A stretch of 64,000 bases of DNA, from assembly GCA_029240245.1 (NCBI GenBank), contig JARBTJ010000012.1:1-64000 (forward strand). Reading direction: 5' to 3'. This DNA comes from Herbinix sp. (GTDB lineage: Bacteria > Bacillota > Clostridia > Lachnospirales > Lachnospiraceae). A program made the translations under genes and the position numbers. Below are positions 54,503 to 64,000 of this stretch, piece after piece (the first letter of the stretch is position 1; every line of letters begins with the position of its first letter). A model generated the notes under the pieces. That model saw only the letters and a list, made by a program, of their open reading frames with translations. It had not been told where the DNA came from and ran no database searches.

Positions 54503-55252
54503 ATGATAAGAAAAATAATACAGATTGACGAAGAATTATGTAATGGCTGCGGGATTTGTGTCAGTGCCTGCCATGAGGGTGCCATCGGTTTAGTAGAGGG
54601 AAAGGCGAAACTTTTAAGAGATGATTACTGTGACGGACTCGGAAACTGTCTGCCGGCTTGCCCTACCAATGCGATAACCTTTATTGAAAGAGAAGCCTTA
54701 GCTTACAATGAAGAAGAAGTAAAGAGGAACATGGAAAAGCTGGAAAAGGAAAACTTCACAAAAAAGGAGAGCAGCACTCCTGCAGCAGAGGTCCATGGCG
54801 GTTGTCCCGGTTCCAGAATGATGAGTTTGCAAAGAACACAGGAGCAGGAAATACCCACGGATGCTGCAATAAAACCGGCGGTATCCATGTTAAGGCAGTG
54901 GCCGGTTCAAATCCAGCTGGTGCCCGTTAACGCGCCTTACTTTAAAGATGCGGATCTTTTAATTGCAGCAGACTGTACTGCATATTCCTTTGGTGATTTT
55001 CATCAGTTTATGAAGAATAAAATTACTTTAATCGGTTGTCCGAAACTGGATGATGCTGATTATGCAGGAAAGCTTTCTCAAATATTATCTCTTAATAATA
55101 TTAAAAGCATCACGGTGATCCGTATGGAAGTTCCCTGCTGTGGAGGTATTGTCCATGCAGTGAAACAGGCAATGTTAAACAGTAGTCAGATGATACCTTG
55201 GAGAGTAATTACCATATCTACCGAGGGTAAAATAATCGAAGACACACAATAA
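54503..55252 (+). CDS. Two-[4Fe-4S] ferredoxin-like iron-sulfur protein
   Basis: Protein of 249 aa with a bacterial ferredoxin domain: CNGCGICVSACHEGAI and CDGLGNCLPACPTNAIT (about 12-60) bind two clusters. The remainder has further Cys (HGGCPGSRM near 100, AADCTAY near 165, GCPKLDD near 185, PCCGG near 215) and an adjacent Rossmann-like fold. Such proteins occur beside hybrid-cluster protein or Crp genes in clostridia; role in electron transfer inferred. Start 54503 fits AGGAGG nine bases upstream. Its last four codons are the first unit of the 12-bp tandem repeat. Confidence 0.88.
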   Translation: MIRKIIQIDEELCNGCGICVSACHEGAIGLVEGKAKLLRDDYCDGLGNCLPACPTNAITFIEREALAYNEEEVKRNMEKLEKENFTKKESSTPAAEVHGGCPGSRMMSLQRTQEQEIPTDAAIKPAVSMLRQWPVQIQLVPVNAPYFKDADLLIAADCTAYSFGDFHQFMKNKITLIGCPKLDDADYAGKLSQILSLNNIKSITVIRMEVPCCGGIVHAVKQAMLNSSQMIPWRVITISTEGKIIEDTQ

Positions 55253-55336
55253 GACACACAATAAGACACACAATAAGACACACAATAAGACACACAATAA
55301 GACACACAATAAGACACACAATAAGACACATGATAA
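55241..55336 (+). repeat. 12-bp tandem repeat containing the stop codon
   Basis: Unit GACACACAATAA: seven exact copies from 55241 to 55324 and a degenerate eighth (GACACATGATAA) to 55336. The first copy encodes the final Asp-Thr-Gln and stop of the Fe-S protein, so every unit repeats the in-frame stop. The rest of the 527-base gap to 55780 holds a terminator and the next promoter. Confidence 0.97.
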
Positions 55337-55439
55337 GAACAGACAGCAAGATACACAATCCTTATGTTTGTCGTTATGAATGAAAAGTAAGCAATGGAAA
55401 GCTAGCTGTGAAAAGGTTAGGATATGAATTCGATTTATG

Positions 55440-63183: not shown

Positions 63184-63283
63184 TCTATGAATATGAATCA
63201 TTGTCACAGATCAGGTATGCTGCATAAAATGAAGCATAGGAATCACTTTGCACTGCATAGGCGTTTTGCCAAGCTACAGTACA

Positions 63284-63371
63284 ATCTGATCAGGCGACGA
63301 GCAGTTACCCGACATATCGTGCAGCCGGGCTGACATTCAGCAGCAGGTTTATAATGCCTGTGGGACAGTAG
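63284..63371 (+). ncRNA. NiCo (czcD-type) riboswitch aptamer
   Basis: Sequence order matches the NiCo aptamer: CTGATCAGGC, a variable P2 arm (ACGA...TCGT), GCAGCCGGGC, a GCTGA/TCAGC hairpin, CAGCAGG...CCTG and the hallmark GGGACAG, as in characterised NiCo aptamers (for example CTGAGCAGGC ... GCAGCCGGGC ... GGGACAG). The class is known to sense Co2+/Ni2+ and to switch metal exporters on. Position directly before a P-type ATPase and its overlap with a terminator (63356-63400) support the call. P1 pairing is weak by eye. Confidence 0.87.
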
Positions 63372-63400
63372 TTTACTCTATGTGTTCCGCAGGCTTTTTT
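63356..63400 (+). terminator. Riboswitch expression-platform terminator
   Basis: GCCTGTGGGACA (63356-63367) pairs completely, with two G-T wobbles, to TGTTCCGCAGGC (63383-63394), followed by six T. The 5' strand includes the aptamer's CCTG and GGGACA, so the aptamer fold and terminator are mutually exclusive: an ON switch when metal binds. Confidence 0.9.
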
Positions 63401-63455
63401 CGTCTTGCGGATCACAATATCATATGCATTGCCTTGTATTTAGGAGGTAATTATT

Positions 63456-64000
63456 CTGACGAAACAAGACGGTTTAACTTTACAGCAAGTGAGAGAACTT
63501 CAATTACAATACGGCAAAAATGAAATAGCGATAAAAACAAAGCAAAAATTTGTAAAAAAAATAGTTCATATTTTTTCGGAACCAATCTATTTCCTGTTAT
63601 CCTGTTCGGCAATTATTTATTTTCTGCTTGGCGAGTCTTTTGATGGGATTATTATGATAGGATTTGTTGGTTTTGTAATAGGTATTGATGTACTGCAGAA
63701 TGCCAGAACGGATAGAATCTTAAGAAAATTAAAAGAGATTACTACTCCTAAGATAAAAGTTATCCGCGATGGCAGGGAAATGATGATTTCCGGTGTCGAT
63801 TTGGTGCCGGGGGATGTCATGCTGATCTCAGAGGGAGTTAAAATACCTGCCGATGGTTATCTTTTATCCGCGACCGGATTATGTGTGGATGAAAGTATAT
63901 TAACCGGTGAGTCGGAAAGTGTATATAAATATAGTGTCAGTAATCCAAAAGAACCGGTTACCGAGGAATATGTATTGTTCCGCAGGGATTATTGCTATAC
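63456..64000 (+). CDS. P-type cation-transporting ATPase, N-terminal part (runs off the window)
   Basis: Frame open from 63444 to the end of the window with 181 codons seen. N-terminal cation-ATPase domain (GLTLQQVRELQLQYGKNEI), helices TM1-2 (about 41-80), PGD at 118-120, PADG 131-134 and TGES at 150-153. The catalytic Asp lies beyond the edge. There is no ATG, GTG or TTG near AGGAGG (63442-63447); CTG at 63456, eight bases away, is the best start. ATT at 63453 or GTG at 63489 are less likely. The NiCo riboswitch upstream predicts Co2+/Ni2+ export; the domain type is otherwise typical of Ca2+/Mg2+ pumps. Confidence 0.85.
   Translation, partial: MTKQDGLTLQQVRELQLQYGKNEIAIKTKQKFVKKIVHIFSEPIYFLLSCSAIIYFLLGESFDGIIMIGFVGFVIGIDVLQNARTDRILRKLKEITTPKIKVIRDGREMMISGVDLVPGDVMLISEGVKIPADGYLLSATGLCVDESILTGESESVYKYSVSNPKEPVTEEYVLFRRDYCY

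Follow-up and report, generated by a model that had tools for sequence, protein, structure and literature searches.

A probable extended NiCo (czcD) riboswitch ahead of a P2-type ATPase gene in Herbinix sp.

Introduction

Near the end of a 64,000-nucleotide stretch of DNA from Herbinix sp., the whole of which is called the window here, a gene for a P-type ATPase opens behind a sequence that resembles a metal-sensing RNA. The question raised by this locus is how that RNA is built and what it can tell about the metal moved by the pump. In the available portions of two accounts of NiCo RNAs, the metal is described as preventing terminator formation, so that transcription is switched on (PMC7689651, PMC7917058). 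The primary work on the class (Furukawa 2015; Xu and Cotruvo 2020, 2022) is known to us through PMC7689651, PMC9294342, PMC9434800 and PMC11477304, each of them available in part. The reading that we favour, with a probability of about three in four, is that the locus holds an extended form of the NiCo (czcD) riboswitch, in which a 5' helix called P0, the aptamer and a terminator that excludes it govern a metal-exporting P2-type ATPase. It is founded on the aptamer, the overlap between aptamer and terminator, the conservation of both P0 strands and the clade to which the pump belongs, all of which are observed by sequence comparison.

Results

A scan with the Rfam models at their gathering thresholds gave a single match in the whole window, over the full length of the NiCo family RF02683 on the forward strand (67.6 bits against a gathering score of 37, E 1.8e-13; coordinates of this and the other features are in Table 1). 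The conserved pieces of the aptamer are found at 63286-63295 (CTGATCAGGC), 63321-63330 (GCAGCCGGGC) and 63362-63368 (GGGACAG). The G-rich junctions GGGC and GGGAC of the class were matched at the level of the Rfam alignment, and the conserved Gs of NiCo RNA are said to bind the metal in the available part of PMC7689651. The sequence-only reading had named a NiCo riboswitch with its conserved pieces at these three places, and both points are borne out, the first of them by the covariance model. RNAfold did not draw the known four-helix fold for the aptamer by itself, so it is the covariance model on which the identification depends. The element reaches beyond the 63284-63400 first proposed for it, with promoter-like boxes from 63201 and P0 from 63243. 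A second copy of the same layout (NiCo and pump) is present in this assembly, on a small contig of 4,015 bases. Two true copies per genome were considered and not accepted, as the assembly is 77% complete and 2.65% contaminated and the second copy may belong to a relative; it was left unused as evidence of duplication.

Table 1. Features of the riboswitch and pump locus in the window
Feature	Position	Strand	Basis
Predicted promoter TTGTCA-18-TAAAAT	63201..63230	+	10/12 consensus matches
P0 (leader strand, variable hairpin, flank strand)	63243..63285	+	match to model R1; not covered by the paired region of the Rfam model
P0 5' strand TTGCACTG	63248..63255	+	7/8 paired to 63277-63284; the exception is C.A
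Hairpin in P0 loop (GGC..GCC)	63260..63271	+	hairpins fold in long linkers of other sites
Flank ACAGTACAA, containing the P0 3' strand	63276..63284	+	9 initial positions, left unpaired, of the Rfam NiCo model
NiCo aptamer	63276..63370	+	RF02683, 67.6 bits
Intrinsic terminator	63356..63400	+	12/12 pairs and six T, fold; overlaps the aptamer P4 3' strand and GGGACA
Ribosome-binding site AGGAGG	63442..63447	+	read, 8 nt 5' of CTG
P2-type ATPase, 851 aa, CTG start	63456..64000, continuing beyond the window (L003:3457-6012)	+	start by alignment to the ATG of relatives

All 12 positions of the terminator arms at 63356-63367 and 63383-63394 are paired, with two G-U pairs among them, and TTTTTT follows directly 3' of the second arm at 63395-63400. 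As the earlier reading had stated, the 5' arm of this 12-bp stem is built from the P4 and GGGACA bases of the aptamer, and terminator and aptamer are mutually exclusive in the window, as is characteristic of the NiCo class. Aptamer and terminator together fold at -45.9 kcal/mol, a value that becomes -26.2 kcal/mol when the 3' arm of the terminator is masked. A simple terminator scanner missed the structure at 63356-63394, probably because the loop of the 12-pair stem has 15 bases and the scanner allows 8. With one finder used throughout on 94 distinct of 100 NiCo sites, and shuffled downstream sequence as the control, the 5' arm of a terminator begins 10-35 nt inside the 3' end of the aptamer at 93 of the 94 sites, versus 29 of the 282 shuffles.

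Between the promoter and the aptamer lies P0, a conserved element absent from the sequence-only reading, in which UUGCACUG is able to pair with the Rfam-unpaired CAGUACAA over a variable hairpin. Alignment of leaders, in the genus and then over all sites, showed a conserved (C)UCUUUGCACUGCAU 5' of the aptamer, and, one fixed C.A apart, the leader core UUUGCACUG is the complement of CAGUACAAA, with which the Rfam model starts and which is unpaired there. For counting, the leader was defined as TTGC[AG]CTG within 70 nt and the flank as ACAGTACAA with at most one mismatch, and sites under the Rfam gathering score (e.g. L080-L083) were retained. In a sample of 122 distinct sites out of 128, with 3 omitted (N or short context), leader and flank occurred together at 74 sites, the leader only at 3, the flank only at 7 and neither at 35; these sites are related, so a Fisher value on the co-occurrence should not be read as a true probability. 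A later set at phylum level gave 13, 0, 1 and 14 in the same order, or 7, 0, 1 and 14 without the 6 of its 28 sites that repeat other sites. Over all 180 usable distinct sites (3 omitted and 7 repeats removed), the leader accompanied 81 of the 90 selected by the flank alone; it was present at 84 sites and missing from 96, so P0 is dispensable for the basic switch.

The linker between the P0 strands is either 6-13 or 20-31 nt long, and 43 of the 44 linkers of at least 14 nt fold to a hairpin below -1 kcal/mol, with stems that differ. Cells of P0 were paired in 96.6% of cases over 77 aligned sites, versus 12-56% in slid versions. The same 77 sites gave no two-sided covariation in the basal strands and a pair count no better than that of letter shuffles, because there is very little variation in the P0 columns and the sites were selected in part by the leader core; since leader-positive rows were chosen by TTGC[AG]CTG, the invariance of the core is partly due to this choice. 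The single compensatory pair seen for P0 is that of L244, a phylum-level flank-only site, where G-C has changed to A-U on both sides and the helix is preserved (UUUACACUG versus CAGUAUAAA). A substitute P0 duplex of other sequence reached p of at most 0.05 at 3 of the 96 leader-negative sites, which is about chance, and one of the three is L244. Pairing of the leader with the stretch ahead of the ribosome-binding site could be drawn by eye in some rows; it was discarded, L047 and L059 being without it.

To see P0 apart from the aptamer, a covariance model (R1) was made from 65 of the 77 leader-positive rows with P1 excluded; it omits the 10 rows of the close clade of the window, together with L201 and L207, and keeps L116, the sister of that clade. 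Its sole match in the window up to E 10 is P0 (35.5 bits, E 5.4e-8 by a rough calibration). Applied to 52 loci, R1 gave 28 strong matches, 27 of them adjoining NiCo, and a further one at chance level; the remaining strong match, in L048, lies about 190 nt before a NiCo match, next to a run of N. In 196 genomes of the class there were 15 matches, 13 at NiCo sites, the other two being cut by a contig end (G354) or inside a coding gene without NiCo (G300). A plain P0 pattern gave 25 matches in 195 related genomes, 24 of which adjoin NiCo, and the 25th (G066) is 193 nt before NiCo, beside a run of N; the reversed pattern gave 0 matches among the genomes listed. In whole genomes, then, P0 is found almost only at NiCo sites. 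We found no account of an upstream helix on NiCo RNAs in the available portions of PMC7689651, PMC11477304, PMC9484302, PMC9481103 and PMC7917058, nor in those of PMC7266159, PMC9331361, PMC9294342 and PMC9434800; the primary papers were outside this search.

The promoter predicted in the window is weak when taken alone, the 4 promoter-like matches in the region being within shuffle noise (mean 2.0, sd 1.6). At 66 of 75 leader-positive sites, 11-16 nt separate the end of the best -10-like box from UUUGC, and the median box score is 8.4 versus 5.0 at 342 random anchors. This near-fixed spacing suggests that P0 is probably the 5'-most element of the transcript.

The ATPase frame opens with CTG (63456-63458) behind a good ribosome-binding site, where its relatives have ATG; a rare CUG start and an error in the assembly are the two explanations for this. 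The protein carries the Pfam domains Cation_ATPase N and C and E1-E2_ATPase. Among the NCBIfam families listed, the general P-type family TIGR01494 alone is exceeded in its cut-off. The top NCBIfam match is the PMR1-type Ca2+ ATPase TIGR01522, with 501 bits against a cut-off of 798, and the scores for the magnesium ATPase TIGR01524 (353 against 611) and the P1B heavy-metal ATPase TIGR01525 (217 against 346) are under their cut-offs as well. Of the solved chains, the closest is the Ca2+ pump lmo0841 (LMCA1), to which the pump is similar over its full length (E 4.5e-117) but from which it differs, in the alignment, at positions of M4, M5 and M6 that we take to be the ion site, as in SERCA: PGEF replaces PEAL in M4, H replaces N in M5 and E replaces N in M6, with the D of M6 retained. 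In relatives the M4 motif is mostly PEEFP, and PGEFP (PGELP in L047) is specific to the clade of the window itself. Plasmid-borne homologues were sought and nothing useful was found.

NiCo RNAs were present in 46 of 195 related genomes at E 0.001 or better, 42 of them over the cut-off. The first gene 3' of 52 NiCo sites, classed by BLAST (CDF-type) with ten proteins cross-checked in Pfam, is of this pump type in 16 cases, a CDF-type exporter in 28, P1B-like in 2 and something else or none in 6. We also collected loci through the pump protein, with a query made from 16 NiCo-linked pumps and the RNA not used in the selection. NiCo lies at most 400 nt upstream of the pump in 47 of the best 80 loci obtained in this way. 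No other metal riboswitch was found at Rfam thresholds ahead of the pump among these best 80 loci, and yybP-ykoY had no match there at its gathering score, two of the loci (L129 and L134) being without upstream sequence. A fluoride riboswitch lies about 1.2 kb upstream of the pump of L110.

For a tree of 82 pumps we used 73 of the best 80 loci and 9 rows chosen through NiCo, leaving off the partial rows L125, L129, L134, L136, L151, L156 and L162. On this tree, which is limited by its quick method and by near relatives among the rows, the NiCo label changes 4 times, versus a mean of 23.4 for shuffled labels. NiCo is upstream in 52 of the 56 rows of the pump clade (43 of 47 once the 9 NiCo-selected rows are set aside), and the clade rows lacking it are three Bathyarchaeia and one Syntrophomonadaceae; outside the clade it is found in 2 of 26 rows (L133 and L138). 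With 52 of 56 clade rows, the association of pump and riboswitch is not a local accident. The Bathyarchaeia pumps (L099, L124 and L159) are nested within the bacterial NiCo-linked clade and have no riboswitch, which suggests that the gene was transferred without the RNA.

Some other NiCo sites are arranged differently. At L040:108-3265, NiCo precedes by about 350 nt a pump of another kind, whose M4 motif PEMLP is reminiscent of the MgtA type, and at L041:248-3491 it precedes an ABC transporter ATPase and an FtsX-like permease, with no metal pump. L116 has two NiCo matches on the same strand, 1.3 kb apart (509-601 and 1900-1984), the second of which precedes the pump. The available part of a survey of 783 NiCo RNAs counts zero tandem arrangements (PMC9481103), and the pair in L116 would be a tandem in that sense only if one transcript holds both.

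An Rrf2 regulator is encoded 3' of the pump (L003:6090-6593 and L004:775-1206), ahead of metY- and cysK-like genes named from reading the sequence. It has extra cysteines (C-x5-C-x5-C in L004) and is under the cut-offs of the CymR and IscR models. At 9 loci of the genus the regulator comes after the ATPase, and the two genes overlap only in C123; at 11 of 19 loci no ATPase was found beside the regulator, some of these loci being near contig ends. An operon of pump and regulator under the riboswitch was rejected: by eye, 6 of 7 gaps between the two genes contain promoter-like sequence (TTGAA..TATTAT or TAATAT), and having such sequence of its own the regulator is probably started separately. 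The upstream regions of metY share, by eye, a motif like CATACTA..TATGAATACTATG. Elsewhere in the window, a 12-base tandem repeat (AAGACACACAAT) occurs in ten copies at 55239-55359, covering the end of a ferredoxin-like gene and the sequence just behind it.

Discussion

Aptamer and terminator make this locus a new member of the NiCo class, and what sets it apart as a variant is the conserved 5' element and the dedicated clade of P2-type pumps. It shares with the NiCo/czcD riboswitch of RF02683 an aptamer recognised by the covariance model, a terminator derived from that aptamer and an efflux-type gene on the 3' side. It differs in having P0, represented in the Rfam model by nothing more than the 9 unpaired positions at the start of that model, and in the type of its pump, CDF-type exporters being the genes that follow 28 of the 52 classed NiCo sites.

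As to the metal, the available portion of PMC7689651 reports binding of Ni2+ and Co2+, doubted to be strong enough for control in cells, together with a response to Fe2+, Fe2+ resistance conferred by one regulated pump, and weak binding of Mn2+ by the aptamer. In the parts available of three further sources, the ligand is called under debate (PMC9294342), mostly Fe2+ occupancy is predicted in E. coli (PMC9434800) and the class is entered as an Fe2+ riboswitch (PMC11477304). The sequence-only reading had Co2+ or Ni2+ blocking termination and turning on the pump, and had assigned that metal to a pump of the Ca2+/Mg2+-like kind. The mechanism fits the locus, with its aptamer, its exclusive terminator and a P-type ATPase of just this kind behind them, but the choice of metal is not supported as it was put: with published work divided between Fe2+ and Ni2+/Co2+ as the ligand, the pump cannot be given one particular metal. 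The riboswitch narrows the cargo to a first-row transition metal without naming which one, and given the dispute we read the pump as a probable exporter of Fe2+, Co2+ or Ni2+, with Fe2+ placed first. Among the matches listed there was no paper that describes a riboswitch-controlled P2 pump for iron efflux, and no relevant one was found for the motif PEEFP.

A metal riboswitch has pointed to the cargo of a Ca2+-like P-type ATPase in another case, that of the Mn2+ riboswitch before a Streptococcus Mn2+/Ca2+ ATPase (Martin 2019, known from its title as cited in the available part of PMC9331361). There, however, both the RNA class and the metal are different, and yybP-ykoY is the RNA left unmatched in our best 80 loci. 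Perhaps the pump of the window is nevertheless of the LMCA1 or PMR1 kind, an ATPase for Ca2+ or Mn2+, with a NiCo switch that responds to Mn2+ or to general metal stress. The PMR1-type family as the top NCBIfam match, lmo0841 as the nearest solved chain and the weak Mn2+ binding described in the available text of PMC7689651 speak in its favour, but the PMR1 score is well under the cut-off, the residues at the lmo0841 ion site differ in M4, M5 and M6, and yybP-ykoY is missing ahead of these pumps (two of the 80 loci being without upstream sequence), and we regard this explanation as very unlikely.

The ligand, the direction of the switch in Herbinix sp., the substrate of the pump and P0 as a helix with a role in folding are what we infer for the extended riboswitch, and its action may be pictured as follows. 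The transcript would start a few nucleotides before the leader, which would fold first as the hairpin P0 with its 3' strand ending at P1, and the four-helix aptamer would form after it. When metal is absent, the terminator would take the P4/GGGACA bases of the aptamer and transcription would stop; with Fe2+, Co2+ or Ni2+ bound, the aptamer would retain these bases and the polymerase would continue into the ATPase gene, whose P2-type product most likely exports the bound first-row divalent metal. The most likely contribution of P0 is to let P1 and the aptamer fold first; its plainest role would be to form early itself, to stack on P1 and to keep the flank off the P1 5' strand. CUG is present in the P1 5' strand at 83 of 83 leader-positive sites versus 34 of 94 leader-negative ones (177 of the 180 sites entered this count), and GGGACAG at 82 of 83 versus 34 of 94. 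The constant CUG fits a link between P0 and P1 but may reflect shared descent.

Two other views of P0 deserve attention. The conservation upstream of an otherwise ordinary NiCo riboswitch could be that of a DNA-level element, such as a start-site sequence or an operator, with no RNA helix, and the nearly fixed distance of the leader from the -10-like box, the nearly palindromic leader (TGCACTGCA) and the lack of two-sided covariation in the basal stem of the 77-row set would all agree with it. Such an element is nevertheless improbable in our judgement, because the complementary flank co-occurs with the leader at a variable 6-31 nt, the longer linkers being hairpinned, because P0 cells pair far above the slid versions, and because L244 has its compensatory pair. 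P0 could also be one half of a strand exchange that brings a second input besides the metal, leader pairing with flank while P1 forms in the ON state and flank pairing with the P1 5' strand in the OFF state. The constancy of CUG and GGGACAG at leader-positive sites is consistent with such an exchange, as is a possible flank:P1 hairpin, which has 4 bp at 65 of 83 sites and 3 bp at 14, the window included. That hairpin is weak, however (median -1.3 kcal/mol, -0.4 kcal/mol in the window), the median cost of blocking the leader is 2.4 kcal/mol, so that P0 should nearly always win, and the constant P1 letters may reflect shared descent; we consider the exchange unlikely.

The extended riboswitch also allows a more speculative thought, which we offer as a tentative possibility: natural NiCo RNAs of this widespread type might be two-domain RNAs, in which the P0 arm, with its two 4-bp stems around the fixed C.A and its variable apical hairpin, is a part of the sensor and modifies its affinity for metal or its choice of metal, or else supplies a second input. 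If this were true, aptamers studied without P0 would have given misleading affinities, which would bear on the dispute between Ni2+/Co2+ and Fe2+. A conserved part outside the usual aptamer could thus help to settle which metal NiCo RNA senses. As for the pumps, the clade consists of P2-type ATPases that would pass, by sequence alone, for pumps of Ca2+ or Mg2+; their cargo is probably a transition metal.
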